Origin: Natronobacterium haloterrestre
GTDB taxonomy: Archaea > Halobacteriota > Halobacteria > Halobacteriales > Natrialbaceae
Assembly: GCF_900112205.1 (NCBI RefSeq)
Contig: NZ_FOKW01000005.1
Location: forward strand, 1-64,000
Direction of reading: 5' to 3'
Length of the DNA stretch: 64,000 bases
The notes under the pieces were generated by a model, which was not told where the DNA came from, ran no database searches, and worked only from the letters and a program-made list of their open reading frames with translations. How positions within the stretch are numbered: position 1 is the first letter of the stretch; the number at the start of each line of letters is the position of its first letter. A program made the position numbers and the translations under genes. Shown here one piece after another: positions 12,560 to 39,333 of the stretch.

Positions 12560-12626
12560 CCGGTCGCCGCCCGTACTGGTCGCGAGGCCGATACTTCTTT
12601 ACCCCTCTACTCGCCAGTTGTGCTAC

Positions 12627-14312
12627 ATGCAGATCGACCGTTTGGGGGGAGGACGGTGGCCGTTCGGCGATCCGCCGGCGGTCGCCACCGACCGGGGAGC
12701 CGGAACGTCGTTCCCGGAGCTGATCGATCCGGCCGTCGCGTCGCTCGCGCGGGGAGTCGCCGCCCTCGAGCCGGCGGCGGGCGTCGCGGGAGATCTCGGC
12801 ACCGGGGTCGGCCTCGCGCTCGCGGTCGGCGGGTTACTCGTCCTCGGGGGCGGACTCGCTGCCGTAGTTCGCGCCCGGTCGGGATCGACCGCAACAGCCG
12901 CGAACGAAGGGAGAAACGAAAAGGGGACGTCGACTGACTCCGGCATCGACGGCGATTCCGGAACGGACGATAGACCGTCGTCCGCACCGGACGGAGACGA
13001 GGACCCGCGAGTCGTGTTCGAGGAACGAATCGGGGACGGGACGCTCGAGCGCCTCGAGCCGATCGCGCCCGCGGCGGTCGACCGGGCCCGGGCGTTCGAC
13101 CCGGATTCGGCTACGGACCCGAAACGGGAGATCGACCGACTGGAACGCGAGTTGCGCACCGCGCTCGAGGACGCGATCGCCGACGGTCGCCTCGATCCGG
13201 GCGTCACCTCCACGTTCGGCGAACCCTACGAGATCGTGAACCTGCCGAGCCAGTACCGCGAGGTCACGCTCCCGCCGTCGGACGGGACGATCCACGTCGC
13301 CGACGTCGAATCCGTCGCCGCGGACGTCCTCGAGGAGGAACGACACGTCCGCAACGCAGCACGGACGATCGGGACCCTGTCCGACCACTGCCGCGAGATC
13401 GAGACCTACGTCCGCCGCCAGGAGGAGGCGTTTACGGACCGCCGCGAAGCCGTCGAGGGGACGCTCGCGGACGTCCGGGACCTGGCCGACCGGCTCGAGG
13501 ACGACCTCGGGGACCGCATCGGCGAGTTCGTCGTCGAGGGCCGACACGAATCGATCGACGGCGTCGTCGAGATCGAACGCCTGCTCTCGGACGCGACCCG
13601 GGCGCTGCACCGCTGTACGTTCGACGAGGCGATGCGGACGCTGGACCAGGCCCGGGCGAGCAGCGACGAATTGCTGGTGACGGTGGACTTCCTCGGCGGC
13701 GTGGTCGGAACGGTCGATCACGGCCGGGGGACGATCGACGTCCCGGAGGAGGTACCGCTGGCGCTCGTCGCCGACGTCGTCCCGCTCGTCACGCGCCGGT
13801 ACGACGTGGCGGTCGACCTCGATCGGGAGGCGCGGGAAATCGTCCTCGAGAGGGTCGAGAAGGAGAGCGAGAGGGACCGCGATCGCCAGGGCGAAACCGG
13901 CCGGAAGGGGATCGATCCCGGCTCCGGTCCCGACTCCGATCCTCCTCCCGCTTCCTCGAGCGATCCGAAGTCGGGAGACAGCCGGGAAACCGATCGAGAA
14001 CGAGCACGCGAGGCGGTCACCCCCGAATCGGTCGCCGACGAGGTCCTGTACGTCCTGCGGGAACTGGACGGGGTCGGCGACGCCGCGAGCGTCGAGTGCC
14101 AGACCGAGCGGCTGCCGGACCCGGTCGCCGAACCGGCCGTCCTCGAGGAACTGGCGCGGTTCTGCCGGCGCCAGACCGACGTCGTCGTCGACGTCGAGCT
14201 ACAGGAGGGCGCACCGCCGGGCTTCCTCGAGATCCGATTCGACGAGCACACGGGCGTCGACGCCGGTCTCGAGACGCTCCGGGAACGGTTCGCGGACAGG
14301 TACGGCGGATGA
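12627..14312 (+). CDS. Membrane-anchored coiled-coil protein, first gene of tubulin cluster
   Basis: Function not recognised. The start is the ATG at 12627 (561 residues), which directly follows promoter-like DNA; upstream in-frame codons lie inside the helicase gene. One transmembrane helix is seen at about residues 58-81, then a Ser/Asp/Gly-rich linker to about 135. A long helical part follows with a coiled coil at about 225-290, and another alpha/beta-like domain sits near 450-561. A segment near residue 330 (ALHRCTFDEAMRTLDQARAS) resembles one in the 21309-23414 protein (ALERYEFDTAVDRVLEARDR), which ties this gene to the cluster. It is probably anchored in the cytoplasmic membrane with most of its mass inside (inference). 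Confidence 0.75.
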   Translation: MQIDRLGGGRWPFGDPPAVATDRGAGTSFPELIDPAVASLARGVAALEPAAGVAGDLGTGVGLALAVGGLLVLGGGLAAVVRARSGSTATAANEGRNEKGTSTDSGIDGDSGTDDRPSSAPDGDEDPRVVFEERIGDGTLERLEPIAPAAVDRARAFDPDSATDPKREIDRLERELRTALEDAIADGRLDPGVTSTFGEPYEIVNLPSQYREVTLPPSDGTIHVADVESVAADVLEEERHVRNAARTIGTLSDHCREIETYVRRQEEAFTDRREAVEGTLADVRDLADRLEDDLGDRIGEFVVEGRHESIDGVVEIERLLSDATRALHRCTFDEAMRTLDQARASSDELLVTVDFLGGVVGTVDHGRGTIDVPEEVPLALVADVVPLVTRRYDVAVDLDREAREIVLERVEKESERDRDRQGETGRKGIDPGSGPDSDPPPASSSDPKSGDSRETDRERAREAVTPESVADEVLYVLRELDGVGDAASVECQTERLPDPVAEPAVLEELARFCRRQTDVVVDVELQEGAPPGFLEIRFDEHTGVDAGLETLRERFADRYGG

Positions 14313-14421
14313 TCCGGCCGACGGGGGCGCCGGCGACCGGAATCGACCCCCGGCGTACGACCGCCGGCGAGACGACCCGAAACCTAAAGCACGATCCGAC
14401 GAACGAGTACGACATCCGAAC

Positions 14422-16050
14422 ATGAGCACTATCTGTAAAATCTGTATGAAACGGGCGGACGAGTGGGACGGCAACTCGCTCGTCGAGCACGTTCGCAACG
14501 CACACGGAGACGAACCGGCGTCGGTCGAACAGGTGTATCCGGACCTCGAGGAGGAGGTCTTCGCGGAGCCCGAACCCGACGAACCGGAAGCCGAGGACGG
14601 ACTGGAATCCGGCGCGGGGCCCGGGTCGGTCGGTTCGGGCGGGAGTCGCGGACCAACCGAGACCCCGAGTGACGACCTGATGGACGACCCCTACGGGAAG
14701 AAGTGGTACCTCGTGGGGGTCGGCGGCGCGGGGAACAACATCCTCGATGCGATCCTGCTTCGCCGGGACACCCTCGAGGCGAACAACGAGCGCCGCGCCC
14801 GCATCTGGAACGGCGGACTCGCCGGCTACGGGCCGCTGAACACGAACGTCAGCGAACTCGAGCAGACCTACTACGCCCAGGAAGAGAAGGAGTACAGCCG
14901 GAACGACCTCCTTCCGAACTGTATCATCGGTTTCGGGAAACACGACTACGCGGGGGCCGGCTACCGCTGGGACATCGGGAAGAAACTCGTCGAAGCCGAC
15001 TTCGCGGACGACGGCGACCCCTTCCGTGAACGGTGGGACCTGCGGAAAGACCGGATCCAGGACTCCCAGGCGGTCATGTTCGTCCACAGCGTCACGAAGG
15101 GGACCGGCTGTGGTTCGACGCCGGTGCTGGCCGAGAAGATCCGCGAGGAGGTCCTCGAGGACGACCTCGTCGTCCCGAAGCCGCTGTTCAGCAGCATCGT
15201 CATCCCCTCGAAAGGAACCGAGTACTCGGAGTTCGGCGGCCGTGCGAAGGTCAACGGCGTCGTCGGCCTCGCCCGCGCCTCGCGGACCGTCGACGCGATC
15301 ATTCCCTTCGACAACAACCGGCTCGAGAACGTCCAGGCCGACATCAGGCCCCGGATCGAGCGCCTCGAGGAGTACAACCCGCCCCAGTATCGGGAGATCA
15401 ACAAGCCGCTCGTGGCGTTCCTCGAGGCGTTTACCATGTCGTCGGTACCACAGTTCCTCGACCGGGACGCCACCATGTCGATCATGGGCGACGTCTTCGA
15501 TCCCGCCGACAGCTTCCGGCCGGTCCAGGACAAGTACGAGCGCGACCCCGACAGCGAGTTCACGCCGGCGGTGATCCTCGCGCCCGTCCTCGGCCGCTCG
15601 CGGGCGAGTTCGTTCGACCGATCGAAACTCGAGATTCTGGTCCGGAACGCCCTGTTCCAGAACAAACTCGCCGAGTTCGACCCGACGACCGCGTGGGGCG
15701 GCACCTTCCTCGTTTACGGCCCCGAAGAGAAGATGGAGGAGGTCACGAAGTTCGTCTCCGACGGCACGCTCGCGAACATCATCGGCGACGAGCAGTTCCT
15801 CGATGCGGGGAACGTAAGCGGCATCGAGTCGGTCGATATCCACGTCAAGCAACTCGTCACACCCTATCTGGACGACGTCTTCCTCTGGGGGACGCTGTGG
15901 AACCCCGAACTGCCGTCGCTCGAGGAGATGTACGACCACGCCCAGCGACTCAAACAGGAGGGCAACAGCCAGCAGGCCGAGAACGTTCGGGACGCGTGGG
16001 AACACGTCGAGGCGCTGTTCTCCTGTCTCGGGCGGGAGAACATGGCCTGA
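14422..16050 (+). CDS. Tubulin-like GTPase with N-terminal C2H2 zinc finger (tubulin-like 1)
   Basis: Residues 5-28 form a C2H2 zinc finger: Cys5-X2-Cys8, His23-X4-His28. An acidic, low-complexity linker runs to about residue 90. The tubulin/FtsZ-like domain then starts with YLVGVGGAGNNILDAIL (FtsZ-like T1 loop, 99-106). It carries a diverged tubulin signature KGTGCGST at 226-233, where FtsZ has GGGTGTG. The 542-residue length suits the large tubulin-like families of prokaryotes (Pfam Tubulin_2 type, from memory). Nucleotide binding is likely; polymerisation is an inference. It is flanked by a membrane coiled-coil gene and a PH-like membrane gene, with separate promoters. The zinc finger could bind a protein partner or DNA. 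Confidence 0.85.
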   Translation: MSTICKICMKRADEWDGNSLVEHVRNAHGDEPASVEQVYPDLEEEVFAEPEPDEPEAEDGLESGAGPGSVGSGGSRGPTETPSDDLMDDPYGKKWYLVGVGGAGNNILDAILLRRDTLEANNERRARIWNGGLAGYGPLNTNVSELEQTYYAQEEKEYSRNDLLPNCIIGFGKHDYAGAGYRWDIGKKLVEADFADDGDPFRERWDLRKDRIQDSQAVMFVHSVTKGTGCGSTPVLAEKIREEVLEDDLVVPKPLFSSIVIPSKGTEYSEFGGRAKVNGVVGLARASRTVDAIIPFDNNRLENVQADIRPRIERLEEYNPPQYREINKPLVAFLEAFTMSSVPQFLDRDATMSIMGDVFDPADSFRPVQDKYERDPDSEFTPAVILAPVLGRSRASSFDRSKLEILVRNALFQNKLAEFDPTTAWGGTFLVYGPEEKMEEVTKFVSDGTLANIIGDEQFLDAGNVSGIESVDIHVKQLVTPYLDDVFLWGTLWNPELPSLEEMYDHAQRLKQEGNSQQAENVRDAWEHVEALFSCLGRENMA

Positions 16051-16254
16051 CCGTAGTTCGAAGTCGGTCCGACGGCCACGTTCCGTTCCGTTCCGTTCCC
16101 GTCGACGTGCGAACTCCGGCCGACCGGAACCGGCATCCGATCGACGGCACCCTCTCTCGCGGATTCGAAATATTCTCGCCCGTTCGAGTTAGTACAGAAA
16201 AATATCGTCTGAAACGGACATATCACGGCAGAAGGTTAATCACGGCCTGAGTGC

Positions 16255-18294
16255 ATGGCCTCTGCAATGGCAGGGGACGTCAACAACATCCGGTGGAAGA
16301 TCGGCTGGTCGCCGTGGAGCGTCATCATCGGCATCACGGTCGTCTTCACGCTGGTCGGTGCGGGGGTCGAAGAGGTCGGGGCCTTCTTCGTCCTCGGAAT
16401 ACTGGCCGGAGTTATCACGTGGTACTGGGGAGTCAGGGAGATCAACGACAAGTATCGACCGTTCGTCAAGAAGTTCATCGGGGAGTCCGAGCGCAACGCG
16501 AAACGGGGGATCGACGTGGAGGACGCGAACCTCTACAACCTCACGTACAACTCCGGGAGTTCGCCGCTGCTGGTCGAACCGTCCGATACCTACTACAACA
16601 CGACTATCGTCGTCACCGAAACCTCGATCAATCTCAACAAGGGGGCCGAGTACGACATGAAGTCCCGGTCGGGCGTCGGCGGCGGGACCAACAAAGAGAT
16701 TTACTACGATCAGGTGACCGGCGTCCAGTCCCACCAGGACGGCGCGTTCACCGAACTCGAGATCAAGACCTCGGGCGGGGGATCGACCCGAATCAGTTCG
16801 AGCGCGACGGATACCGTCGACGAAGTCGTCTCCCAGGTGCGCCAGCGCGTCCGGGAGATCAAGAATCCCGGGAGCAGTCGGCGGAGCCGACGAGAGGGCC
16901 GCGGACGCGGGGCCGAAGCAAACCAGCAGGTGGGATCGTCCGCTGAATCGGCCGATCCCGATCCGGATCCCAGTCGCGATGTCAGCGGCGACAGCCAACC
17001 CAGCGAGAGCGGCGCGTCCGAATCGACTCCGCACCCGGTGACGACGGTCGCCGACGACGTCGCGTCCCGAACCCGGCCGAGCGACCCGCTTGCCGGCGAA
17101 CTGTGTCGCGTCCTGTCCGCTTCTTCGCCCGACGAGGGGCGCGTCGAGGACGTTCTCGAGGACGTGGTCGACCGTCTCGAGCGTGCTGGCACGGTAGCCG
17201 ACGCCGTCGCCGACGTCGACGATGCGACCGACGAACGACGGGTCGAAGCGGCGAAACGGTCGCTTGCCGCCCAGGAGGGACCGATCGCCGACGGCGTCGA
17301 ACCGGTGTTCGAGCGGGTACTGGAACTCGAAACCGAGGTCGCTGAGGCGAGGTCGGAGCCGGCCTCCGCATCCACGTCCGCGTCCGACGCCCGGCCCGAC
17401 GAGAACCGACGGGAGGAAATCGCCGAACTCGAGGCCGAACTGGACCGGTACCGGCGAACCTACGACCGGATCGAGGACGCCGCCGGAACCGTCTGCCGGG
17501 AGGCCGCCCGGAACGGGGGCCTCACCTTCCGGACCGACGAGGTCGACGATCGGACGGTCGAACTCGCCGACGCCCTCGAGGACGGCGAACTCGTCTTCGA
17601 TACCCCGGGGACGGACCTGGCACCGATCGTCGACGAGGTCGAGCGAACGGTCCGACCGCAGACGGCACAGTCCCGGGAACTGCTCGAGATACTCGGCGAC
17701 TCGGGATGGGAAGAGTCGGACGTGTCGGCGGTGCTCGAATCGACGGTCGAGACCGTCGACGAACACGCCGAGTTGCGGGCCGCGGTCGCCGACATCGGAA
17801 CGAACGACGTTCGACGGCGGCTCGATTCGCTGGACGACGAACTGCAACGCGAGGAGGGCGCGATCTACCGTCACCTCGCCGACCGCGTCCGGGAACTCGA
17901 GGCGATGGTCGACCGCGACGGGGTCGACGACGTTCAGTTGTACGCGATCTACCAGGAGTGTACGTTCTACGATCGAACGCTCCTGCCACGGCTCGCCCGG
18001 TCCCGGTCCGACCAGGGATCGGCCGACGTCCAGCGACTCGCATCCGACGTCGAGTCCCGGGTCGCGACCATCGAAGACGAGTACGTCAGCGTTCGAGCCG
18101 ACCACAACCACACCATCCCGAACCACTTCCTGTCGCTGGCCCGTGACCTCCGCCGCGAGGCGGCGACCCTCGAGGAGCGGAATCCGGAGCGGGCCGCCGG
18201 GATCCTGTCGGCGACCGACGAACTGCTCGGGCACGTCGAACAGTTGTACGAGCGAAACGAGTACAGCGTCATGCTCCGGCGTCTCCGGGGCTGA
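16255..18294 (+). CDS. Membrane protein with PH-like domain and C-terminal coiled coil
   Basis: The 679-residue protein has two transmembrane helices near the N terminus (about residues 18-40 and 42-62) with a very short loop, so the remainder is cytoplasmic. Residues about 85-205 look like a bacterial PH-like domain (IYYDQVTGVQSHQDGAFTEL, then an RISSS strand and a final helix VDEVVSQVRQRVREIKN). A Ser/Asp/Pro-rich linker (about 205-275) follows. The rest is mostly helical with coiled-coil character (RRRLDSLDDELQREEG). A second ATG at 16267 is an alternative start. It lies between tubulin-like genes 1 and 2 and could link the membrane to the filaments (inference). Confidence 0.75.
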   Translation: MASAMAGDVNNIRWKIGWSPWSVIIGITVVFTLVGAGVEEVGAFFVLGILAGVITWYWGVREINDKYRPFVKKFIGESERNAKRGIDVEDANLYNLTYNSGSSPLLVEPSDTYYNTTIVVTETSINLNKGAEYDMKSRSGVGGGTNKEIYYDQVTGVQSHQDGAFTELEIKTSGGGSTRISSSATDTVDEVVSQVRQRVREIKNPGSSRRSRREGRGRGAEANQQVGSSAESADPDPDPSRDVSGDSQPSESGASESTPHPVTTVADDVASRTRPSDPLAGELCRVLSASSPDEGRVEDVLEDVVDRLERAGTVADAVADVDDATDERRVEAAKRSLAAQEGPIADGVEPVFERVLELETEVAEARSEPASASTSASDARPDENRREEIAELEAELDRYRRTYDRIEDAAGTVCREAARNGGLTFRTDEVDDRTVELADALEDGELVFDTPGTDLAPIVDEVERTVRPQTAQSRELLEILGDSGWEESDVSAVLESTVETVDEHAELRAAVADIGTNDVRRRLDSLDDELQREEGAIYRHLADRVRELEAMVDRDGVDDVQLYAIYQECTFYDRTLLPRLARSRSDQGSADVQRLASDVESRVATIEDEYVSVRADHNHTIPNHFLSLARDLRREAATLEERNPERAAGILSATDELLGHVEQLYERNEYSVMLRRLRG

Positions 18295-18650
18295 TCCCCG
18301 GCGGAATCCGTTCGTCGCCGGACATCGGGAGTCGACGGCAGTCCACGCCGGCCGTCGAGAACTGCAACCGGGCCGACCAGGCCGACAATGTACTTATATC
18401 TGACACTACCTGGACGGCGTCATATCGACTCGTCTTATGGAAATCGAGAGCGGTGTGGTAGTATTCGACATCCAGGATTCTATATATTCACTAATTCGGC
18501 CACAAATAACGAGTAGATGGGCGAATAAAACAGGATATCGGCGAGGGCCAGTATCTTTATTACGCGGTACTCGAGTACTAACTACCGTCGGAAAATGTAC
18601 CGTTTAGCGACTATTTTTCCGTATGAAATAAACAACGGGCTGATATTCAC
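18295..18650. promoter_or_regulatory. AT-rich promoter region of the eight-gene tubulin operon
   Basis: This 356-base gap is clearly richer in A and T than its surroundings. It holds several TATA-like elements (cttatatctg near 18393, tctatatattc near 18480, tctttatta near 18554, atgaaataaac near 18622). It also holds a perfect 12-base palindrome GTACTCGAGTAC at 18567-18578. No gene is evident. The arrangement suggests a regulated promoter, possibly with more than one transcription start, driving 18651-31047. Confidence 0.5.
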
Positions 18651-19937
18651 ATGACGTACCTGTTCGTAGGGGCGGGACAGGCAGGGGGAGCAATCGTCGA
18701 CGCGATCTTCGATCACACCGACGACTCGATGCTCGGGCTGTTCGAGTCGACCGACATCTCGACGCTCGGTCGGCCGCTGGTCTTCAACTCGACGATGCGG
18801 GACCTCCAGAACCTGTCCAACGTGCCTGTCGAGGATCAGTACGGCGTCGCAGAACAGCACGGCCTGGTGCAGGGAACCGAACCCGGGTTCGAGGAGATGG
18901 TCACCGGCGGCTTCGGGCGCAACCCGGCCGCGGCCGACGAGGTGATGAGCGATCACGCCTCGGAGCTACAGACGATCTTCGGGGAGAAGTTCGACGGCGG
19001 CTACGAGACGGCCTACGCCGATGACGAGGGCGACGAGGAGGAACCCGCCGTCGATCCCGGCCGATCGGACACGATCCAGTTCGCCTTCCTCTTTCTCGGA
19101 CTCGGCGGCGGGACCGGCTGCGGGATCGGTCCCCACCTGGCTCGAGAGATCAAGGAGTTCACCGACGGTCGAACCAAGGTCGTCGCGGTCGCCGTTCTCC
19201 CGAACACACGGAGTAACGCCGACGACGAGACCAACGCCGGGCGGCAGGCCTGGAACGCCCGCTACGGGCTCGACCGGCTCGAGGACGAGGTCGACGGGAT
19301 CATCCTCGTGGACAACCAGCGGATCTCCTACCTCAACTCCGCCGGCGGCGAGTTCGGCGAGTACAACGAGTACGTGGCGACGGCGATCCACGACATGGTC
19401 GCCGGCCCGATGCTGAGCAGCGTCGACGCCAGCGAGGTCGACGGGGTCGATACCCCGGACATCGACGTTCAGGACATCGTGACGTCGCTGTCGTTCGGCG
19501 TCGGTACTGACGAGTCGCGGCCGGGTTACGGCGCGATCGGACGATCGGTGACGATGACCCGATCGCTCTCGGGCTACCTGTTGCCGTTCGTCGGCAAACG
19601 GGACGTAGACAGCGCGGCGCTGTCGCGGCTGTCAGCCTCCAAGCAGACGGTCGCGAACGCCGACGTCGAGGACGCACAGAAAGCGATCTCGCTGATCAGG
19701 GCACCGAGTTCGAACCTCGGGGCGGGCTCGTACAGCGTCGAGACGGGGACGGTCAAGGAGTTCCTCGAGCGCAGTTGCGGGCTGAACGAAGTGAACCTGG
19801 GCGTCGCGCTCAGCGACCGGAACCTCGCGTCGGTGACGACCCTTCTGACCTACCGGCGCGAGGATCTCGACCGACTCGAGGAGATCGAAGCCGCGGCGGA
19901 CGCCTACGAACGGGAAACGGAGGAGTTGCTCGCATGA
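18651..19937 (+). CDS. Tubulin/FtsZ-superfamily protein (tubulin-like 2)
   Basis: The 428-residue protein begins YLFVGAGQAGGAIVDAIF, whose GQAGG resembles the tubulin/CetZ GQAG motif. It contains a near-perfect tubulin signature GGGTGCG at 152-158 followed by IGPHLAREI. An acidic insertion (about residues 121-138, DDEGDEEEPAVD) precedes the strand leading to the signature. It is closer to tubulin/CetZ than to FtsZ in these two loops but far shorter in recognisable similarity elsewhere. First gene of the operon; its stop overlaps the next start (ATGA). GTP binding is predicted; the kind of filament is unknown. Confidence 0.85.
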   Translation: MTYLFVGAGQAGGAIVDAIFDHTDDSMLGLFESTDISTLGRPLVFNSTMRDLQNLSNVPVEDQYGVAEQHGLVQGTEPGFEEMVTGGFGRNPAAADEVMSDHASELQTIFGEKFDGGYETAYADDEGDEEEPAVDPGRSDTIQFAFLFLGLGGGTGCGIGPHLAREIKEFTDGRTKVVAVAVLPNTRSNADDETNAGRQAWNARYGLDRLEDEVDGIILVDNQRISYLNSAGGEFGEYNEYVATAIHDMVAGPMLSSVDASEVDGVDTPDIDVQDIVTSLSFGVGTDESRPGYGAIGRSVTMTRSLSGYLLPFVGKRDVDSAALSRLSASKQTVANADVEDAQKAISLIRAPSSNLGAGSYSVETGTVKEFLERSCGLNEVNLGVALSDRNLASVTTLLTYRREDLDRLEEIEAAADAYERETEELLA

Positions 19938-20218
19938 TGCAGCGCTGGTCCCGAACGGTCACGCGGGCTGCGAGCGCGGCCGCCGCCCTCTGTCTCGGGA
20001 TCGGTATCGCGGTCGCGACCGCCAGTGGAACCGATGAATCGCCGGTCGAAGCGGCGGCTGACGTGACTGGCAAGGCGATCACCACGGTCGAACTCGAGGA
20101 ACAGGCCCTCGTGGTCGTCGGCGGTGGACTGCTGATCGGACTCGGCTTCGGCATCGTCGTCGCGAGCGGCCTCACTTACTGGTACAAGAACAGACAGATC
20201 GGGGGGAAGCTACGATGA
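19934..20218 (+). CDS. Small single-pass envelope protein
   Basis: Function not recognised. The 94-residue protein starts at the ATG overlapping the tubulin-like 2 stop; a second ATG directly follows. It has a signal-peptide-like N terminus (about 10-31), a short acidic extracytoplasmic segment, one transmembrane helix (about 58-82) and a basic tail YWYKNRQIGGKLR. Its stop overlaps the next start (ATGA). The basic tail beside the membrane could contact a cytoplasmic partner such as the co-transcribed tubulin-like proteins (inference). Confidence 0.7.
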   Translation: MMQRWSRTVTRAASAAAALCLGIGIAVATASGTDESPVEAAADVTGKAITTVELEEQALVVVGGGLLIGLGFGIVVASGLTYWYKNRQIGGKLR

Positions 20219-21312
20219 CGAGCGGACGAACGCGAGCCTCGATCCTGATCGTTTTGGCAGTGGTGACGGTCGGCATCGTCGCCTTTGGCGGCAGCGCCGC
20301 GGCAATCGAGGACCCCTGTGAGGGGTACGAGGCCGACGAGCGGACGGTCGTCGCCGTCGTCGACGGTGACGACGAGCCCGAAGCCGAGGAAGTCACGCTC
20401 CACGCCGGATCGACGTTCGACCTCGTCTACTGCGAGGGTGACGAACCGGCGACCGGCGAGTGGCTCAACACGAGCGACACGACCGGTTTCGAGGCCGACC
20501 GCGACGCGGGGACGGTCGACGGAAGCTACGGGATCACCGTTACTGCCACCGACGGCACGGAGACCGATCGGGTTGCGTTCCCCGACTACGTCGAGACCGA
20601 CGAATTCGAGGACCGCCCCGACGGCGTCGAGGTCGGGGTCGCCACGAGCGAGTACGCGACCAACGGAACGCTCGAGGGGGTCGACTGGATCGCAGGAGCC
20701 GACGGGCAGTACAGCCTCCACGAGCGGAACTACGTCACGGCAAGCGAGAACCTCACGGCCGCCATCGACGAGTTGAACGAGACGATCGCCGCGATCGAGG
20801 ACGACGACGAGTTCGATCGCGACGACCTCGAGGAGGCGAACGAGACGCTGCACGAACTCCAGAAGCGACACGGGTATATGATCGATAACGAGACGAAGCT
20901 GATCGACCACCTGAGAAACGAGACGACGGACGGGAACGCAACGGGAACGTTCGCCGCCATCGAGGCGATCGAAACCGAACGGGCGGATCGGGAAGCCGCC
21001 CTCGAGGCCGCGACCGAGAACTACCGAACCGCCGTCGAGGCGGAACGGGCCGAACCACGGTCGACGGTCAGGCTCTTTCTGTTCGGTTCGCTCGCCGGCG
21101 GATTGGTCGTCGGGACGGTCGCCGGGGCGGCAGTACCGCTGATCGCCGCGAGACGCGTCGAAGAGAAGATGAAACTGAGCCGGGACGTCAGCTACGACCG
21201 CAAGGCGGCGCTGTTGCCGGTGCTGGTCGGTCTCCTGCTGGCGATCGCCGGTATCGCCGTCTTCCTCGTCGTGGCCGACGGCGGCACGCGAGTTCTGGAG
21301 GTGATCGGATGA
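20215..21312 (+). CDS. Exported helical protein with two C-terminal membrane helices
   Basis: Function not recognised. The 365-residue protein has a signal peptide (1-30, ending SAAA). An extracytoplasmic part follows: first beta-rich (with two cysteines, near DPCEGYE and VYCEGDE, that could pair), then helical/coiled-coil (about 170-280). Two transmembrane helices lie at about 287-312 and 332-354. The loop between them is basic and cytoplasmic (RRVEEKMKLSRDVSYDRK). Translational coupling by ATGA overlaps on both sides places it firmly in the tubulin operon. Confidence 0.72.
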   Translation: MTSGRTRASILIVLAVVTVGIVAFGGSAAAIEDPCEGYEADERTVVAVVDGDDEPEAEEVTLHAGSTFDLVYCEGDEPATGEWLNTSDTTGFEADRDAGTVDGSYGITVTATDGTETDRVAFPDYVETDEFEDRPDGVEVGVATSEYATNGTLEGVDWIAGADGQYSLHERNYVTASENLTAAIDELNETIAAIEDDDEFDRDDLEEANETLHELQKRHGYMIDNETKLIDHLRNETTDGNATGTFAAIEAIETERADREAALEAATENYRTAVEAERAEPRSTVRLFLFGSLAGGLVVGTVAGAAVPLIAARRVEEKMKLSRDVSYDRKAALLPVLVGLLLAIAGIAVFLVVADGGTRVLEVIG

Positions 21313-23414
21313 ACGGGAACGTCAAGACCGCCGCGGGAATCGGCTTGCTGGTCGTGCTCGCAGCGGCGATCGGGGCCGGCATCTTCGTCTGGTCCGGCTC
21401 CCAGGCCGCGACCTGGTTCGTTCTCGTGGGTATCCCCCTGATCGTCGTGGTGGGTATCACGCTGTACGTTCGCGGCGTCGTCGCCCGAAGCGGCACCAGC
21501 GAACAGCAGTTCGTACGCACCCGTGCCCGGTCGGTCGCCGAGGAGTTCCAGGAGTGCGTACGACGGGTAAACGACCTCGAGGCCGCCTATCCGAACTGGA
21601 GCCCCGGCGTGGACGCCCGCCTCGAGTCGATCGAGGGCGACTTCCGAACCGAGGGAGTCACCTTCGACCTCGAGTCCGGCGCGTTCGACCTCGGGAAGGG
21701 CGTCAAAAGCGCCGACCTCCAGACGTTCGAACAGCTCTCGACGGAGATCGAGAGCGTCGACGCGGAGATCGAATCGTCGTTCCGCGAGTTCGGCGCGGCC
21801 GAGCAGGAACGCGTCGACGACGGCCTCGAGCGGCTCGCGGAGGTCGACCTCGCAAGCGCCGATCGCGGCTCGTCTCCCGAACTCGATCCCGAGAAGGGAG
21901 CGACCGTGCCGGAGTGTCGAGACGCGATCGACGGCCTGCGGGCGGACGCGACCGACGAGATCGAAGCCGCGATCGGGACGGTCCGCGAGATGGGCCGGGG
22001 CGACGTCCGGCCGGACGACGCGGACGCCGTCGAACGCGACCTCGAGGACGCCGAGAGCGCGCTCGAGCGGTACGAGTTCGATACTGCCGTCGACCGGGTT
22101 CTCGAGGCCCGCGACCGACTTCGCGACCAGTTCTCGGGCTCCTTCGAGAGCGAGCGGGAGTCGCTGCTGGACCTGATCGACGCCGTCGACCGGGCGGACG
22201 TCGACGCCTACGTCGACGCCGAGTACGTCGACGACGTCGATCGCATCGAGTCCGAGGTGGAGTCGCTCGACTCCGCGCTCGACCTCGCAGAACTGAGCCG
22301 GCCGCGGGCCGACCTGCGCCGGACCTGTATCGACATGATCGCGACGATGGAACGCGACCTCGAGGACGACGTCCGAACGCTGCGGGAAGCGGACCTCCCG
22401 CCGGGGTACTACGCGGAGCCGGACGTGGTCGGCGAACGGTTCGTCGACGAACTCGAGGAGATCGACGACCTCGACGCGTTGGCAGACCGCTGGAGCGAGG
22501 TCGCGACCCAGCTCCGGGACGCCCTCGAGACGGCGAATACGAAGGCGGCAGTCGTCGACGCCTACGACGACGTCGCCGACACGATCGAGACGACCCTCGA
22601 GCGCGAGGGCGAAGTCACCGGCGACGACCTGCCGATGCGTCACGCCGACCAGTTCCTCGGCCTGTACTTCCGGCGCAACGACGGCGTCGAGTTCGACCCC
22701 GACGTTCCCGTGCTCAGGCGCGGCGACGTCGAGACTTCCGAACTCGCGGTCGAGGTGACCTACGAGCGCGGTGGCGACGTCCGGACCGCCACGCTCGAGT
22801 TGACCGACGGCTACGCAGCGACCGAGACCGTCGAGACGCGGATCGCCGGCACCGCGACGTTCCCGGACGTGCCGGAGGGGACACACACTCTCGCGGCCGA
22901 TCCGGGCGACGAGGATTTCGCCCCCGTCGAGCGGGAAATCCGGGTCGACGGCGACACGACGATCGACGTCGAGTTCGCCGAGCGCGGCCTTCGAGAGCAA
23001 CTCTGTGAGGGCGTCGATGCCGACATGGAGGAGGTCCTGCCGGAGATGCGACCCCGTCTCGAGGACCTGTTCGCCGACGAGGGATACGTTTCGACGGCGA
23101 TGGACTTGCCCGTTCGGGACAGCCACGCACCGTGTCTCCTGGCAGCGTGGGCCGAGGAGACGGCCTACGACGTCTGTCGGGACGGCGACGACGTCGTCGT
23201 CTACGACCGCGAGCAACTCGAGCGGGAACTGACCAACGTCGTCCGGTACAACGTCGAGCCGGGCGACCGGCTGACCTTCGACGAACTCGAGCGGAACTTC
23301 CTGTCGGCGCCAGTTCCCGATTCGGTCGTCCGGGATGCGGTCGTGGCCGTCGACGCCGACGCGGACGTGGAGTACAGCGTGACGACCACCGAAACAGCGA
23401 TCGAGGTACGATAA
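21309..23414 (+). CDS. Membrane-anchored cytoplasmic coiled-coil protein with beta and winged-helix-like C-terminal part
   Basis: Function not recognised. The 701-residue protein has two adjacent N-terminal transmembrane helices (about 6-28 and 34-55), so the rest faces the cytoplasm. Residues about 60-440 are helical with coiled-coil stretches, including a hairpin motif (ALERYEFDTAVDRVLEARDR) also found in the 12627 protein. A beta-rich domain of the carboxypeptidase-regulatory type follows (about 470-560, TATFPDVPEGTHTLAADPGD). The last 130 residues look winged-helix-like. Its stop abuts the start of tubulin-like 3, suggesting the two products work together. Confidence 0.72.
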   Translation: MNGNVKTAAGIGLLVVLAAAIGAGIFVWSGSQAATWFVLVGIPLIVVVGITLYVRGVVARSGTSEQQFVRTRARSVAEEFQECVRRVNDLEAAYPNWSPGVDARLESIEGDFRTEGVTFDLESGAFDLGKGVKSADLQTFEQLSTEIESVDAEIESSFREFGAAEQERVDDGLERLAEVDLASADRGSSPELDPEKGATVPECRDAIDGLRADATDEIEAAIGTVREMGRGDVRPDDADAVERDLEDAESALERYEFDTAVDRVLEARDRLRDQFSGSFESERESLLDLIDAVDRADVDAYVDAEYVDDVDRIESEVESLDSALDLAELSRPRADLRRTCIDMIATMERDLEDDVRTLREADLPPGYYAEPDVVGERFVDELEEIDDLDALADRWSEVATQLRDALETANTKAAVVDAYDDVADTIETTLEREGEVTGDDLPMRHADQFLGLYFRRNDGVEFDPDVPVLRRGDVETSELAVEVTYERGGDVRTATLELTDGYAATETVETRIAGTATFPDVPEGTHTLAADPGDEDFAPVEREIRVDGDTTIDVEFAERGLREQLCEGVDADMEEVLPEMRPRLEDLFADEGYVSTAMDLPVRDSHAPCLLAAWAEETAYDVCRDGDDVVVYDREQLERELTNVVRYNVEPGDRLTFDELERNFLSAPVPDSVVRDAVVAVDADADVEYSVTTTETAIEVR

Positions 23415-24641
23415 ATGGCACGAACGGACACGTTTACGAGATGGAGCGTCATCGCCTCGGGAGAGGGTGGCGGACGAATCGCGTCGCAGTTTTTCGATCG
23501 AAGCGAGAATCCGGGGATCGACGACCGGATCCTGGTCATGAACACCAACCGCGCCGACCTCCGGAACACGATCGACCGGATGCAAGGCGGGATGGGGACC
23601 GACCGGGACGAAGACGAGATGATGGAATCCCACGCGCTGGAGTTCGGCTCCCAGCAGGGTGCGGGGAACTTCTTCCCGAACGGGGAGGCCTGCGCCCGCG
23701 AGGACCTCGATCGGATCGTCGAGAACATCAAGGAGTTCGGCACGACCGACGCGTTCATGCACGTCGCCACGCTCGGCGGCGGCACCGGGAACGGATCGAT
23801 TCCCTACGTCGTCGATCAGTTCAAGAACGGCCTCGAGGATCTGAACGATAACGGGGCCTCGGAGCGGTGGATGGACAGCGTGATCCACACGGCCTTCGGC
23901 GTCTGGCCCTACTACTACGAGCAGCCCCAGCGGCACTTCAACGCCGTCTGTGGTCTTTCCCGGCTGCTTCGAACCGGCGAGGGCGAGCAGAACGGCGACA
24001 TGGTCCTGCTGGCGGCGAACTCCCACCTGGACGAGGAGGAGAACGGCAACGGCCGCCACTACGACTCCATCAACGACGCGATCATCACTGCGATCGACCT
24101 GATGATCGGCGCGGGCCGGGAGACACGCAGCGTCATCGACGTGAAAGACTACGTCACGATCCCGTCCCAGATGGACGCCTACCACTTCACGCCGGCCGTC
24201 GCGACCGAACTCAACGGGAACGTCTACGAACTCGAGTACATGCTCGATCAGGCTGCCGAGAACACCTACGTCCCGATGGACGTCGGCACGACCCAGGCGG
24301 CCTACGCGATCGTCCGTGCGCCCGAGAGTATGATCGACAACGGCGAGATCACCGAGCCGGACGTCTACGGCGCGTTCCGCGACTGGACGGGGAAACACGA
24401 CATCAACGTCGCCGGCCAGGCCAGTCTCACCCCCAAGCGAGGCCGGGGAAGCGACATCGACGTCCTGTTGTTGCTCGGCGGGTTCGACCTGAACCCGCTG
24501 CTCGAGCACTCCTGGGACGAGTTCGAGATGCTGGGGGACAGCCTCGCCGGCCAGGGTCGCGGCGAGGGCGACCTCTCGCGGGCGGAACTGGATCGCATCG
24601 TCGACAACCTCGAGTCGTACGTGGAGCGGAACGCGGAGTGA
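23415..24641 (+). CDS. Tubulin/FtsZ-superfamily protein (tubulin-like 3)
   Basis: The 408-residue protein starts WSVIASGEGGGRIASQF, a diverged first glycine loop (GEGGGR 16-21), followed by a T3-like strand with asparagines (VMNTNRADLRNT). It has a clear tubulin signature ATLGGGTGNGS at 119-128. A candidate T7-like segment is YDSINDAIITAIDLMI. It is distinct from tubulin-like 1 and 2 in every loop, so the cluster encodes three non-redundant members. No gap separates it from the upstream coiled-coil gene, and 7 bases separate it from the large membrane protein that follows. Confidence 0.83.
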   Translation: MARTDTFTRWSVIASGEGGGRIASQFFDRSENPGIDDRILVMNTNRADLRNTIDRMQGGMGTDRDEDEMMESHALEFGSQQGAGNFFPNGEACAREDLDRIVENIKEFGTTDAFMHVATLGGGTGNGSIPYVVDQFKNGLEDLNDNGASERWMDSVIHTAFGVWPYYYEQPQRHFNAVCGLSRLLRTGEGEQNGDMVLLAANSHLDEEENGNGRHYDSINDAIITAIDLMIGAGRETRSVIDVKDYVTIPSQMDAYHFTPAVATELNGNVYELEYMLDQAAENTYVPMDVGTTQAAYAIVRAPESMIDNGEITEPDVYGAFRDWTGKHDINVAGQASLTPKRGRGSDIDVLLLLGGFDLNPLLEHSWDEFEMLGDSLAGQGRGEGDLSRAELDRIVDNLESYVERNAE

Positions 24642-24648
24642 TGCAGAC

Positions 24649-27600
24649 ATGGTAGGATACGAACGCAATCGACGCCGGGACTCCCCGCCCGACGGTCGCG
24701 CCACGACCGTGAGACGGGTCCTCGTCGCACTCGCGCTCGTCGCGGCACTCGCGCTCGGCGGTGCGGTCGTCGCGGACGTCGCGGCGGCCGACGAAGACGG
24801 GAACGAGAACGAAAACGAGGACGGCGAGGCCGCCCTCGAGGTCGACCTCGAGCGTGAGGGTCACGACCTCATCGTGACCCTGTCCGAGTCCGGGGTCGAC
24901 TCCCTCGAAGAGGTCCGCATCGACGTAGAGGACGCCGACGTCGCGTACGCGGAAGAGGTCGGCGAAAACGAAAGTCGAACCGAGTTCGCGTTCGACGTCA
25001 CCGATCCCGACGAGGGGGACGCCGCCGGGGTCTCGTTGACGAACGCGAACGTCACCGTCTCGGTCACCGGTGACGGCGAGACGGCGTCGGCCGACCACGA
25101 AGGAGTCCCGCTTCACGCCGTGACCGTCTCGGACGATCTACCCGTGTGGACCGACGCGACCGACGACGAAGACGAAGACGAAGACGAAAACGAAAGCGAG
25201 AGCGACAAACTCCGCGTGCCGCTGAACGCCTCGGCGACGACCGGCGTCGCCGCCGGCGACACGGTCGCCGTCAGCGGAGAGAGCGGATCCGAGAGCGACT
25301 CGTTCCAGGGAACGATCCGCGGAAACGGCAGCCAACTCGAACTCGAGCGCGAAGGCGTCGCCGCGCTGGGTGCCGGCGAGCCGATCGAACTCGCGGTGCT
25401 GGCCGAGTCCGACGGGCCGGCTGTTTTCGAAGCTCCCGACGAGCCGATCGTCCTCGAGCCGGAACTCCGGTCGATCGACGACCGTCTCTCGCTGTGGTAT
25501 CCCGGGCTCGAGACGGATCAGGAGTACGACGTGGTCGCGGAAGGGAGCGACGGACGGTACGTCGCTACCGTGGAACCGAACCGACCCGGCGTCCTCGGAC
25601 TCTCCTCGCTGTCACCGCAGGGGAGTATCGACGTCGAGGTCGTCGCCGCGAACGACGCCGGTGACCTCGAGATCGACGAGTCACTCGAGTACGACGGGCC
25701 GTTCGGCCTTACGGCGGTGGCGGACGGTTCGACGCTCTCGTTCGACGAAGCGGCGGCCGACCTCGAGGTTACCGGTGCCGTCCTCGAACCGAACGACAGC
25801 ACGGCCCACACGGTCGGGGTCGACGGCATGGACGAGGAAGGGACGCTCGAACTCGACCTCGAGTCCGCTGGGATCGACTCCATCGGCGAGGACGACACCG
25901 TGCTCGTTCAGACCGTCGCCGGAACGGCGACGGTCGAACTCGTCGAACCGGACACCGCGGACACCGACGAGGCAGGGATGGTCACGCAGGCGATCGTCGT
26001 CGGAACGATCGGGTCGCCGGTGGTGCTATCGCTCGTCCTCGGACTCGGAATCGGCATAGCAGGGGTCCGCATCGGCGGGCAACCGACGACGGCGAAGGTC
26101 GCCCTCTCGGCGCTGACCACGTTCTGTCTGGCGCTCGCGGGGACCATCGGCGTGCTCTACGTCACCGGGAACGTCTTTCCGATCGATCCGGTCATCCACG
26201 GCGTCGGGGCAGGCGGCGTCCTCCTCGGAACCGCCGTCGCGCCGCTTTCGTATGCTCTGCTTGGCAACCGCTCGAGCGGAGCCGACGTGACTCCCGGCTT
26301 CACGGCCGATGTGACGATCAGTGACGGCAGCGGGAAACTCTCCGGACAGGCGACCGTCCACTACCGCGAGGCGGGCGACGGCGACCGGAACGGCTCCTCG
26401 ACCATCGTCGGCGGCAGCGGCACCCTCTCCCTGCCCGATCGGGGCACGTGGGAACTGGTCGCCAAGTACGGTTCCGACACGTCGGACGTCGAAACGGTCA
26501 GCCGACGTAATTCGAGTGCGGTGCTGACCGTCACCTCCGAGACGACGCTCACCGTCGTCGATGCTTCGGATCGCGACCCAGTTCCCGGGGCGACAGTCCG
26601 CACGGCCGACGGCGCGTCGAAGACGACCGGCAAGCGGGGCACGGTGACGATCGAGCCGCCAAACGACGGCTCGAGTTCCGGGGTCGAAGTCGAGATCGGC
26701 CACGAGGCGGACAAGTACGAGAGTCGGACGAAGACCGTCCGGTTCGGTCGCAACGACGACCGCACGGTCGAACTCGAGCCTCGAACCGGCCGGGTGAAGA
26801 TCGTCTCTCGGATCGACGGCGTCGCGACCGAGTCGATGGCGCTTCGGGTTACGCCCGAAGACGGCGAGCGGTTCCTCCAGCAACGCTCGAAGGGCTTCCG
26901 GACGACGACCGGGCGCGACGGAACCGCGACCCGCGACGACGTGATGGTCGGTCGGTACCGCGTCGAGATCCCCTCGCCCGGCAACCGTTCGGACCTCTTT
27001 GCCGGCGGCGAAGCCGACCTCGTCGTCCGCGAGAACGGAACGGCAACGGCCGAGGTCGACGCCCGCTTCACCTGGTCGCTCTCCCAGGGCCAGCGCGACC
27101 GGATCGCCGACGTCCGGCGCGACCTCGAGTCGCTCGCGACCCAGTCGGGCCGGGATACGTCGATCCCCGAGTACTACGCGTCGGTCGTCGAGTCGATGCT
27201 CGAGAGCGTCGAGTCGATGCCCGAGGCCGGTCACCTGTTCGTCGGCGGCGACCACGATCCCGACGCGGTCGCGGACGCGATCCTCGAGGCCGCGGCGGAG
27301 ACGACCGAGGCGATCAACGACGCGATGACGACCAAGCGCAACGTCGACCTCTTCGCCGCCTGCGCTGATATGCCGGACGCCGGCGTCCGGTGGCGCGGCG
27401 AGTACGACCTCGCCGAGTTGCTCGATCGCCTCAGTGACGATCCGACGAGCCAGCGGAACCAACTCAAACAGCGCTACGAGGACGTCGCCGGGCAGATCGA
27501 GGACGCCCGGCGGGACGTCTCCGAGATCGCGCCGGCCCGAGAGATGCACAACCGCGCCTGGGACCTGGTCGGCGACGCCGATCGGGGAGATCAGGCGATC

Positions 27601-27696
27601 GTCACCGCCTACGCGTCCCTGCTCGTGCTCGATGCGGTCGAACAGTTGCTAGAGCACGACTCCCTCCGCGAACGACTGTCACGGACGGTGTTCTAG
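24649..27696 (+). CDS. Large envelope protein, exported N half and cytoplasmic helical C half
   Basis: Function not recognised. The 1015-residue protein has a signal sequence (about 25-48). An acidic extracytoplasmic region with several beta-rich Ig-like units follows (50-443). Three transmembrane helices occupy about 444-540. A cytoplasmic half comes next: two carboxypeptidase-regulatory-like beta domains (for example ATVRTADGASKTTGKRGTVT), then a helical domain of about 230 residues to the C terminus. Odd number of helices after signal cleavage puts the C half inside. It is the biggest plus-strand protein of the cluster and a good candidate for the membrane-spanning link between surface and filaments (inference). 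Confidence 0.72.
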   Translation: MVGYERNRRRDSPPDGRATTVRRVLVALALVAALALGGAVVADVAAADEDGNENENEDGEAALEVDLEREGHDLIVTLSESGVDSLEEVRIDVEDADVAYAEEVGENESRTEFAFDVTDPDEGDAAGVSLTNANVTVSVTGDGETASADHEGVPLHAVTVSDDLPVWTDATDDEDEDEDENESESDKLRVPLNASATTGVAAGDTVAVSGESGSESDSFQGTIRGNGSQLELEREGVAALGAGEPIELAVLAESDGPAVFEAPDEPIVLEPELRSIDDRLSLWYPGLETDQEYDVVAEGSDGRYVATVEPNRPGVLGLSSLSPQGSIDVEVVAANDAGDLEIDESLEYDGPFGLTAVADGSTLSFDEAAADLEVTGAVLEPNDSTAHTVGVDGMDEEGTLELDLESAGIDSIGEDDTVLVQTVAGTATVELVEPDTADTDEAGMVTQAIVVGTIGSPVVLSLVLGLGIGIAGVRIGGQPTTAKVALSALTTFCLALAGTIGVLYVTGNVFPIDPVIHGVGAGGVLLGTAVAPLSYALLGNRSSGADVTPGFTADVTISDGSGKLSGQATVHYREAGDGDRNGSSTIVGGSGTLSLPDRGTWELVAKYGSDTSDVETVSRRNSSAVLTVTSETTLTVVDASDRDPVPGATVRTADGASKTTGKRGTVTIEPPNDGSSSGVEVEIGHEADKYESRTKTVRFGRNDDRTVELEPRTGRVKIVSRIDGVATESMALRVTPEDGERFLQQRSKGFRTTTGRDGTATRDDVMVGRYRVEIPSPGNRSDLFAGGEADLVVRENGTATAEVDARFTWSLSQGQRDRIADVRRDLESLATQSGRDTSIPEYYASVVESMLESVESMPEAGHLFVGGDHDPDAVADAILEAAAETTEAINDAMTTKRNVDLFAACADMPDAGVRWRGEYDLAELLDRLSDDPTSQRNQLKQRYEDVAGQIEDARRDVSEIAPAREMHNRAWDLVGDADRGDQAIVTAYASLLVLDAVEQLLEHDSLRERLSRTVF

Positions 27697-27698
27697 AG

Positions 27699-28730
27699 AT
27701 GAGATCGAGACCGACACTGACGACGACAACACCGGGCGCCGACGCTCGAGCGGTGATCCTCGTCGCGATCGTCGCCGTTTCGGCGGTCGCGGCCGCGCCG
27801 CTTTTCGCGGGGACCGCCGCGGCGGACGAGCCCGAAACGGCCGACGACTACTTCGAGGAGTTCCGGGCGATGGAGGGTACCGAGGCCTACGAGGAGTACG
27901 ACGAGTTCGAGACGATCCGGACCTTCGCCGTGACCCAGGTACAGGAGACCGGCACCCTCGACGACGACGAGCGCGCGCAACTCGAGGCCGCGCGCGCCGC
28001 GATGGTAGCGTTCGATCAGGCGTACCGCCACGCCGAGAACGGCGACTACGAGGAGAGTCTGGAGTACGCGGAGGAGACCGACGCACACATCGCCGAACTC
28101 GAGGAGTACGAACAGACCCAGGCGACGCTCGCCGACCTCGCGGTAACGCGGTTCTACGAGGGGCTTGCCGACGGTCTCTACGACGAGGCCGAGGCGGCCG
28201 AGCGGACCCCCGACCGGCTGGAGTTGCTCTCGCTGACCGCGACGGCCTACGAACGGGCGAACATGCCGGACGAGGCCGCGGAGTTCAACCTCCAGGTCCA
28301 GCAAGAGACTGCGGCCTACGAGGCCGCGCTCGCGGAGATGGACGACGCCGAAGCCGACGCCGAGGCGTTCTTCGACGACTGCGAGGACTGCAACGACGTC
28401 GGCAGCGCTGTCGCCGGCGCGCCGAACGTCCTCGGGACGTTCGAGCAGTACCAGGAGGTGCGAACGGTCGACGACGCGGTGGCCGACGCTCGAGCGGAGG
28501 CGACGTTCCACGGACTCGAGGACCGCGAGGAGGCGCTCGCGACGCTCGACGACGAAACGAGTGACGCTCGCCTGTCGCTGGCGATTGCTTCGGCGTCGGT
28601 GCTCGTGGGGTATGGCGTGATCGTCGGACTGTTCGGGACGGTCCTGCTGGGGCGGATCTTCGCCTGGCAGCGGACCTACGAACGAGCGCAGGTCGGGTCC
28701 GTCGTGACGGTGGGTGATGGCGATGTCTAG
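27699..28730 (+). CDS. Exported helical (TPR-like) protein with C-terminal membrane anchor
   Basis: Function not recognised. The 343-residue protein has a signal peptide (about 17-42), an all-helical extracytoplasmic part with TPR-like helix pairs (HAENGDYEESLEYAEETDAH), a two-cysteine motif DDCEDCND, one transmembrane helix (about 289-317) and a short cytoplasmic tail of about 25 residues. It lies 2 bases after the previous gene, and its end overlaps the start of the next. Confidence 0.72.
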   Translation: MRSRPTLTTTTPGADARAVILVAIVAVSAVAAAPLFAGTAAADEPETADDYFEEFRAMEGTEAYEEYDEFETIRTFAVTQVQETGTLDDDERAQLEAARAAMVAFDQAYRHAENGDYEESLEYAEETDAHIAELEEYEQTQATLADLAVTRFYEGLADGLYDEAEAAERTPDRLELLSLTATAYERANMPDEAAEFNLQVQQETAAYEAALAEMDDAEADAEAFFDDCEDCNDVGSAVAGAPNVLGTFEQYQEVRTVDDAVADARAEATFHGLEDREEALATLDDETSDARLSLAIASASVLVGYGVIVGLFGTVLLGRIFAWQRTYERAQVGSVVTVGDGDV

Positions 28731-31047: not shown

Positions 31048-31128
31048 CACCGGCGTCCCGACCCTTCGATTCTCGAACGTTCTACCCGTTGCTCGTTTAG
31101 CTTCCGTTACTCCTGTAGAGAAGGGGTT

Positions 31129-31190
31129 GCCACGTCCACGTCCGCGTCAACGTCCACGTCCACGTCCACGTCCACGTCCACGTCCGCGTC
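31129..31190. repeat. Hexanucleotide tract CACGTC in convergent intergenic gap
   Basis: About ten copies of a CACGTC-type hexamer, some changed to CGCGTC or CAACGT, lie between the convergent ends of the plus-strand tubulin operon and the minus-strand AAA operon (gap 31048-31278). It is not in frame with either gene. It could be a slippage-prone spacer; no T-rich terminator-like run stands out. Confidence 0.7.
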
Positions 31191-31278
31191 GATGTCGTTG
31201 GCGCGCTCGAGGTCGACGAACCGGGCGACAAGAGGGAGAGAGTCACACCGCGGGACCGTATCGGGAGTCGGTCTCGGG

Positions 31279-34200: not shown

Positions 34201-34296
34201 AGTGCCGATCCCGACGGCGATCGCTCCGCGACCGACCCCGACTGCGTCGACCCGACCGCTCTCGAAGGAGCCGACCTGACGGTAGCTATCGGCCAT
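31279..34296 (-). CDS. Cytosolic beta-propeller plus Ig-like domain protein
   Basis: The start is the ATG at 34296, which has a strong GGAGGTG site 5 bases upstream; the frame is open further upstream only as low-complexity shadow of the AAA gene. The 1005-residue protein has no signal or membrane helix. Residues about 1-300 show WD/PQQ-type propeller repeats (GDRLWSQGVGDAHAIAAVPD, AGTGELRWRTELEATHVAPV). Several Ig/CARDB-like beta domains follow. A Ser/Arg-rich linker lies near 545-620, then more Ig-like units. The start overlaps the AAA ATPase stop by 11 bases, so translation is coupled. It could be a cargo or filament adaptor for the ATPase (inference). Confidence 0.75.
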   Translation of the reverse strand: MADSYRQVGSFESGRVDAVGVGRGAIAVGIGTRVEVVEGSRSTAIDHGDRIDDVAVADRVVVLSSGDLTTYSRDGDRLWSQGVGDAHAIAAVPDAGICGVLGPNRLRAIEIATGREQFDADRTRPGGRDDELLAVPTGFLIATWSFLTHVDLEGEVDFDRDLSAVIRSVGRCDDVIVAALQSDQLVGLQAGTGELRWRTELEATHVAPVGEGSVLVGTAAGTRAVGADGATEPVGDLPNGAPYATPDGGIVCSVREGTVSTHVHAGDQLALAVATDSVGVGGTIAVEVTNQTDRERTASIAVDVTGCSLSPSDRTVTVDPGGTEIVDFPVSSVRAEGEADLAIAVDGSVAHEASITVEDAASGGIAVETALETRTIEDGVAELEVAVENVGGVSLDSVTLLETEAGTGELPAGETWTGSVTRPYEPERRVSVGLEVARGDRRREYAPTCTLPSAPTIDLESGRDALRATVGLEGDVTLSDRLVIEMPGAGRVRSPVTIDGDELLLVVPQYEEGTARIGFDALGIDERIRLSDSGPFSTPSRSSSRSVSGAGSQSRSSSESQSRSRSRSRSRSGTDSGTQSRSDSRPRSETTDDSARTEPSETGSRTRDEHTGSPADDGSIPAADDDDRSASDTTGSPTLAATRRVPDAEPAIGHAVRDRIVLRNDGDGPAEDVVVAVGDDRRRVGTVPAGETVPLERAVGVVSPDGVVLPSVEIEVGDVVVDRLPDRRLEASVGGIAVKAAVDPDDGTVAADLVNRDDRDCRVLGLELADAARPESLGERLEAGETTTVTASVSPDGQLAALGEGGAAPLSIAVRYADGEEETIDALATVASLEGAAGGAAAGGESGDDLPDERPLAVEIGPETQAAGEYGSVVLVFENESDRALSDVSVSAGGDPINEMFYSEARRERLAAGDWIEHFVDLEAGIEEPTFEAVVSYAVDGAEREYTVRASGPAVADEDAWTDDHLEAWSVERLENTESSTPDSGGTPSVPELPSSLSTPLRRDT

Positions 34297-36139: not shown

Positions 36140-36869
36140 TGTCGTCACTCCGTGTACGGGACCGAGTCCGTTGCTGTGGTCGCAGTTGCGTCGCGGCTCG
36201 TTCGACCGTCGCAAGCAGTTCGCCCTGGCGGTGGTCGGTCCGCTCACGGACGTACCGTGCATCCGCGTCGGCCCGTCGTACGACCAGCGCGAGCGTCTCG
36301 AGCATCTCGACGACCGCCTCGCAGCCGGTCACGAGCGTCCCGTTCCCACCCGCTGCCCGCACCCGGCGTACGATCCGCCTGAAGTCCTCGAGAGCGTCCT
36401 CGACGCGTTCGATCAGGGCCTCGATGACCGGCCGCCAGTTACGGGCGTACGGGACGACCGACGAGAGCGGCACGACCACGCGGGAACCGACCGTCTCGAA
36501 CCGGCTCGCGTCCGCGATGCGGTCGGCGACGGAGGGTTCGAAGGCCTCGAGTGTCACCTCGTCGTGCTCGTCGCCGACCTCGAGGACGCGCCGAACGAGC
36601 GCGTCCTCGGTTCCGGTGTCGTCGGGAGACGACTCCCGGGAGCCGCCGTCCGGGCGGGGAACCCTCGAGTCGTTGCCGCGGCCGGCAACCTCGGGTCGTG
36701 GGGGAAACGGCGCACCGGCGCGCAGCAGTTCCGCGAGATCGACGAGCGCGCCCATCGCGACGTCGACCCGTCGCGACGGGTCGGGCCCCGACAGCGTCCG
36801 CAAGGAGAGCAGGTGCTCTCCCTGTTCGGCGACCCGGCCGACCCCTCGAAGCAACGAATCGGCGTGCAT
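36132..36869 (-). CDS. Helical protein of unknown function in AAA operon
   Basis: The 245-residue product is not recognised. It has an N-terminal helical region (about 1-55), a Pro/Gly/Asp-rich linker (about 55-90), and a C-terminal helical domain with a long amphipathic stretch (NWRPVIEALIERVEDALEDFRRIVRRVRAAGG). No signal or membrane helix is seen. It lies 1 base after the coiled-coil gene and overlaps the AAA gene by 8 bases, so it is probably a stoichiometric partner of the ATPase. Confidence 0.72.
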   Translation of the reverse strand: MHADSLLRGVGRVAEQGEHLLSLRTLSGPDPSRRVDVAMGALVDLAELLRAGAPFPPRPEVAGRGNDSRVPRPDGGSRESSPDDTGTEDALVRRVLEVGDEHDEVTLEAFEPSVADRIADASRFETVGSRVVVPLSSVVPYARNWRPVIEALIERVEDALEDFRRIVRRVRAAGGNGTLVTGCEAVVEMLETLALVVRRADADARYVRERTDHRQGELLATVERAATQLRPQQRTRSRTRSDDNA

Positions 36870-36870
36870 C

Positions 36871-39332: not shown

Positions 39333-39333
39333 G

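Follow-up and report, generated by a model that had tools for sequence, protein, structure and literature searches.

Tubulins usually have partners that are separate proteins. A tubulin-like GTPase of Natronobacterium haloterrestre that carries two cysteines and two histidines at its own N-terminus raises the question of whether these residues form a genuine domain and, if so, what that domain would bind. The protein, here called TubA (542 amino acids), is encoded at 14422..16050 on the plus strand of the window, the whole 64,000-nucleotide stretch of DNA that was analyzed. A first-pass annotation of this DNA had described it as a tubulin-like GTPase fused to a C2H2 zinc finger formed by Cys5, Cys8, His23 and His28, a fusion for which no known tubulin served as precedent, and had proposed DNA, RNA or a protein as what the finger could tether filaments to. 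The four positions and the open reading frame coordinates agree exactly with the translated frame, and a literature search found no paper describing a zinc-finger tubulin. Conserved and carried on a flexible stalk, the finger offers an experimental way into the question of how a prokaryotic tubulin is recruited.

A finger-like domain on a tubulin-like GTPase

TubA opens with MSTICKICMKRADEWDGNSLVEHVRNAHGDEP, in which the putative ligands are arranged as C5-x2-C8-x14-H23-x4-H28 (finger core from C5 to H28 at 14434..14505, plus strand). The canonical C2H2 spacing is C-x2-4-C-x12-H-x3-5-H. The spacing initially called classical is correct in its two cysteines and two histidines, while the central loop exceeds the textbook x12 by two residues. 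This loop has 14 residues in most orthologues, 11 in three of them and 9 in the divergent locus L038; the exact x12 spacing occurs in another divergent orthologue, L039.

Matches to TubA were found in 37 of 392 genomes of the same order, and no match was seen outside this order in the phylum sample. The C..C..H..H motif lies within the first 36 residues in every one of the 37 distinct orthologues, and the four ligands also occur at 21/21 named-genome loci, which come from Halorubrum, Natrinema, Halorussus, Haloarchaeobius, Halopenitus, Halobaculum, Natronomonas, Halomicroarcula, Halovenus and Haloquadratum. They are retained down to 31% identity (31-33% for L038 and L039). Within the first 93 positions of a 28-row alignment, nothing is invariant except M1 and the four ligands. 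Likewise, eleven pairwise comparisons with 11 relatives gave 0 nonsynonymous differences in the ligand codons, with pN/pS values of 0.35-1.05 at the other finger positions, which evolve fast. The objection anticipated in the first-pass annotation, that the ligands might not be conserved among close orthologues, falls away because they are kept in all of them.

These data also bear on whether this Cys/His cluster could be accidental or vestigial and lack a metal function. Such a cluster would be compatible with the rapid change at non-ligand positions and with the matches of Pfam finger families to this region, all of which fall below cut-off. However, the ligands remain invariant across many genera despite changes in loop length, and the motif appeared in 0 of 2,000,000 simulated 40-residue N-termini with the composition of the locus, making this explanation highly improbable. 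A wrongly assigned start codon was considered and rejected: the frame is open upstream in the window, and several orthologues have stops within the 15 codons before M1. A viral origin was also set aside, as none of 239 pattern matches in viral contigs was confirmed as a relative. Related haloarchaeal fingers were observed in two other settings, as a stand-alone protein of 52 amino acids (L119) and at the N-terminus of a membrane-anchored protein (L120). One genome holds a second TubA copy spread over two overlapping frames (G423:C2:21416-23031), which looks like a frameshifted paralogue.

AlphaFold2, run with the orthologue alignment, predicts a folded N-terminal domain, a disordered stretch at residues 51-91 and then a tubulin fold. 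The N-terminal mini-domain (residues 1-48; 14422..14565, plus strand) is modeled as the finger followed by two short helices. The fold characteristic of C2H2 fingers is beta-beta-alpha; in this model, two bridge residues precede a helix at positions 20-28 that bears H23 and H28. The pLDDT of the core is 86-92, and that of the finger modeled alone is 88. A Foldseek search with the 50-residue finger model returned no match, the query being too short. A published caution is that AlphaFold still models a finger fold after the ligands have been taken out, and that zinc binding is absent from some of the fingers predicted in haloarchaea (PMC11241148). Taken together, conservation, selection and structure prediction strongly support a zinc-finger-like domain fused to a tubulin-like GTPase, and we infer that this finger binds zinc.

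Between the two domains lies a flexible, low-complexity linker (residues 49-91; 14566..14694, plus strand; pLDDT 30-38), with a pN/pS of about 0.4-1.1. The proposal of a 60-residue acidic linker is right as to its existence and its acidic first half; its low-confidence stretch, residues 51-91, is about 41 residues long, and the sequence becomes Gly/Ser-rich after the acidic part. Its length among orthologues ranges from 32 to 131 residues, which makes it less natural that the metal site acts as a structural or sensing element, such as a zinc or redox switch, regulating the GTPase directly in cis. Regulation in cis would be in keeping with the wide variation of the finger beyond its ligands and some hydrophobic positions, as expected of a domain with no fixed ligand surface, and on balance it is judged quite unlikely.

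The assignment of the remainder of TubA to the tubulins is borne out by a match to PF00091 (E 6e-11; 43.4 bits against a cut-off of 33). The predicted model has the two-domain tubulin fold, and its Foldseek matches are CetZ2, CetZ1, gamma-tubulin and FtsZ (probability 1.00, TMt <=0.79), the closest being CetZ (4b45, E 1.5e-16). Alignment locates the T1 nucleotide loop GVGGAGN at residues 99-105 (14716..14736), the T4 signature loop TKGTGCGS at residues 225-232 (15094..15117) and the probable T7 catalytic loop at FDPAD (15496..15510), all on the plus strand. Invariant residues include G99, G101, G102, A103 and G104 in T1, G227, T228, G229 and G231 in T4, and the acids D360 and D363 in T7. With T1, T4 and the T7 acids conserved, TubA possesses the elements that an active GTPase needs. 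If INKPLVAFLEAF were read as T7, TubA would appear to lack the catalytic acids; this reading was discarded, as the alignment puts T7 at FDPAD.

Three tubulins in one accessory block

TubA lies in a block of about 15 genes spanning roughly 26.8 kb (12560..39333). Besides TubA and two further tubulin-like GTPases, the block encodes a Cdc48-like AAA+ ATPase and numerous membrane proteins or coiled-coil proteins. The plus-strand set begins with a trio: g1 (12627..14312), a membrane-anchored, coiled-coil-like protein; TubA; and g3 (16255..18294), a membrane protein with a long helical C-terminal part. These are followed by the second tubulin-like GTPase, TubB (18651..19937; PF00091, 1.4e-16), the membrane protein g5 (20215..21312), the membrane-anchored protein g6 (21309..23414) and the third tubulin-like GTPase, TubC (23415..24641; PF00091, 1.2e-8). 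The set ends with g8 (24649..27696), a large membrane protein with a CarboxypepD_reg-like Ig stretch, and the membrane proteins g9 (27699..28730) and g10 (28714..31047), the latter with NEW3/Ig-like repeats. On the minus strand are g11 (31279..34296), a homologue of a propeller-like protein at L038, the Cdc48/VCP-like AAA+ ATPase AAA12 (34286..36139), the conserved gene g13 (36132..36869), the soluble protein g14 (36871..37935), which has weak matches to helical domains, and the conserved soluble protein g15 (37989..39107).

Of 20 genomes, 18 keep the order g1-TubA-g3-TubB-g5-g6-TubC-g8-g9-g10; in some, a few accessory genes could not be detected. The set g11-AAA12-g13-g14-g15 lies next to it in the majority of 16 additional stretches. 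Relatives also provide precise empty sites: where TubA is absent, as in three related genomes, the helicase and HAD genes that flank the block are separated by just about 16, 81 and 130 bp, compared with 26.8 kb in the window. This marks the block out as a discrete accessory unit. Its distribution among relatives is conserved but patchy. As a discrete unit, it could be deleted from relatives that can be cultured (Halorubrum, Natrinema, Halobaculum) to probe what a multi-tubulin system does. At the distal end of the block, in the interval from g15 to the HAD gene, lie two adjacent 39-nt direct repeats that are 90% alike (39243-39324 of the window). Assignment to a known defense system was considered and dropped, since the tubulins have no PADLOC match and AAA12 matches the IetA and TRIP13 models only as an AAA protein.

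TubA, TubB and TubC all lie within 10.3 kb in a conserved arrangement. Each forms a separate, strongly supported clade whose stem measures some 2-2.6 changes per site, and a recent tandem duplication was rejected on this ground. TubA is placed in its own 100/99 clade, and the CetZ-like sequences form a 99/96 clade that does not include it. Moreover, the inner branching of the three tubulins agrees in several places, for example in pairing the window with L053, L049 with L050, and L040 with L046. In combination, the separate clades, long stems and matching branching suggest three old families that were inherited together. Elsewhere in the window, a fourth gene of the tubulin superfamily (48724-49920) falls in a CetZ-like clade with L008, and genome G000 encodes nine PF00091 proteins in all.

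L038 and L039 present contexts other than the block, of which they keep only the trio of a membrane coiled-coil protein, TubA and a second membrane coiled-coil protein. In both cases, the downstream neighbor has a weak sequence match to g3, and the upstream neighbor corresponds to g1 by position and architecture only. Near the divergent zinc-finger tubulin of L038 are a 1144-aa protein with PF13809, of the FtsZl1 type, and a g11-like propeller protein (L038:4896-13312). L039 contains a MoxR-type AAA+ gene and a gene for a 456-aa protein without a Pfam match, whose GLGGGG loop resembles the T1 loop of tubulins (L039:5754-9024).

Relation to described tubulin systems

Among described tubulins, the Halo.Tub group comprises tubulin-like paralogues of Halobacterota that occur in several quasi-tandem copies with coiled-coil gene neighbors (Santana-Molina et al., 2023; PMC9871819). 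By this published description, the block, with its three quasi-tandem tubulins and coiled-coil neighbors in Halobacterota, resembles Halo.Tub, which may overlap with or include some of these tubulins. The block tubulins therefore probably belong to a group that is known but uncharacterized. The published account differs in making no mention of zinc and, in the text consulted, of neither a three-family cassette nor a Cdc48 partner (PMC9871819). CetZ1 and CetZ2 of Haloferax volcanii also belong to the haloarchaeal tubulin superfamily and are the best structural match of TubA; TubA, however, lies outside the supported CetZ-like clade on a very long stem, and has an N-terminal finger and linker.

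The membrane-remodeling system of FtsZl1 (Tubulin_2) is likewise a multi-gene operon combining a divergent FtsZ-like GTPase with membrane proteins (Makarova and Koonin, 2010; PMC2875224). In contrast, TubA has no match to PF13809 at E<=0.1 and no long C-terminal coiled coil, and vWA, kinase and OmpA genes were not recognized in the block. The PF13809 protein close to the zinc-finger tubulin of L038 links the two tubulin systems. GTPase/MoxR conflict systems, in which tubulins come paired with TRAFAC GTPases and HSP70, share the linkage of tubulins to NTPases and to vWA or Ig-like proteins (Kaur et al., 2020; PMC7159879), and L039 lies near a MoxR gene; in the block of the window, however, neither MoxR nor vWA was recognized. 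Finally, the small zinc-finger proteins described in haloarchaea are mostly one-domain proteins of the C(P)XCG type (PMC11241148). L119 is a related stand-alone finger, whereas the finger of TubA is fused to a GTPase. Against this background, the conserved finger and the bounded cassette of three tubulins and a Cdc48-like ATPase appear to be new.

Candidate partners of the finger

C2H2 fingers often bind DNA, and the finger of TubA might accordingly tether a filament to DNA or RNA, for example in DNA positioning, much as TubZ does with its adaptor TubR but within one polypeptide. Residue 6, which is mostly K or R in the 28-row alignment, and the existence of the haloarchaeal relative L119 would be in line with such a tether. 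The finger is a single one, however, and its mean net charge of -0.10 to -0.14 per residue makes it more acidic than the GTPase domain. The same alignment contains no conserved basic column in the finger, the cassette is rich in membrane proteins, and the viral-contig matches yielded no confirmed relative. Acidity is common to proteins of halophiles and is therefore weak evidence against DNA binding. On the whole, a nucleic-acid tether is considered unlikely. The negative charge, the lack of a conserved basic residue, the single finger and the trio with membrane and coiled-coil proteins together favor a protein partner, as do the flexible stalk and the variable surface of the finger.

One such partner would be the Cdc48/VCP-like ATPase conserved in the block, or a ubiquitin-like modifier, for which the finger could serve as a recognition handle controlling filament turnover. 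Yet the zinc-finger tubulin persists at L038, where no AAA gene was seen within its 20 kb, and the ATPase at L039 is of the MoxR type, leaving this proposal with a low probability.

The preferred reading, with a probability of roughly 45%, is that TubA is a tubulin GTPase whose stalked finger docks onto a membrane coiled-coil partner and thereby anchors the filament at the envelope. By itself or together with TubB and TubC, TubA would most likely polymerize with GTP, and the finger would most likely be the docking head for the cytoplasmic coiled-coil part of the membrane partner. The gene neighborhood points to g1 or g3 as the first candidates for this role. Docking could then tether the filament to the envelope or position it there, and the Cdc48-like ATPase may remodel or disassemble the resulting TubA complex. 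FtsZ offers an analogy, as it is anchored through its own C-terminal tail and linker. A broader and more tentative possibility is that the block encodes an archaeal cytoskeletal machine of a new kind, gained or lost as a unit, in which the three tubulins would work as one membrane assembly with the zinc-finger tubulin as adaptor subunit and the Cdc48-like ATPase as disassembly motor. At the other end of TubA, the C-terminal tail LGRENM (16027-16047 of the window) is strongly conserved, with G537 and R538 invariant, and is a possible second docking motif.
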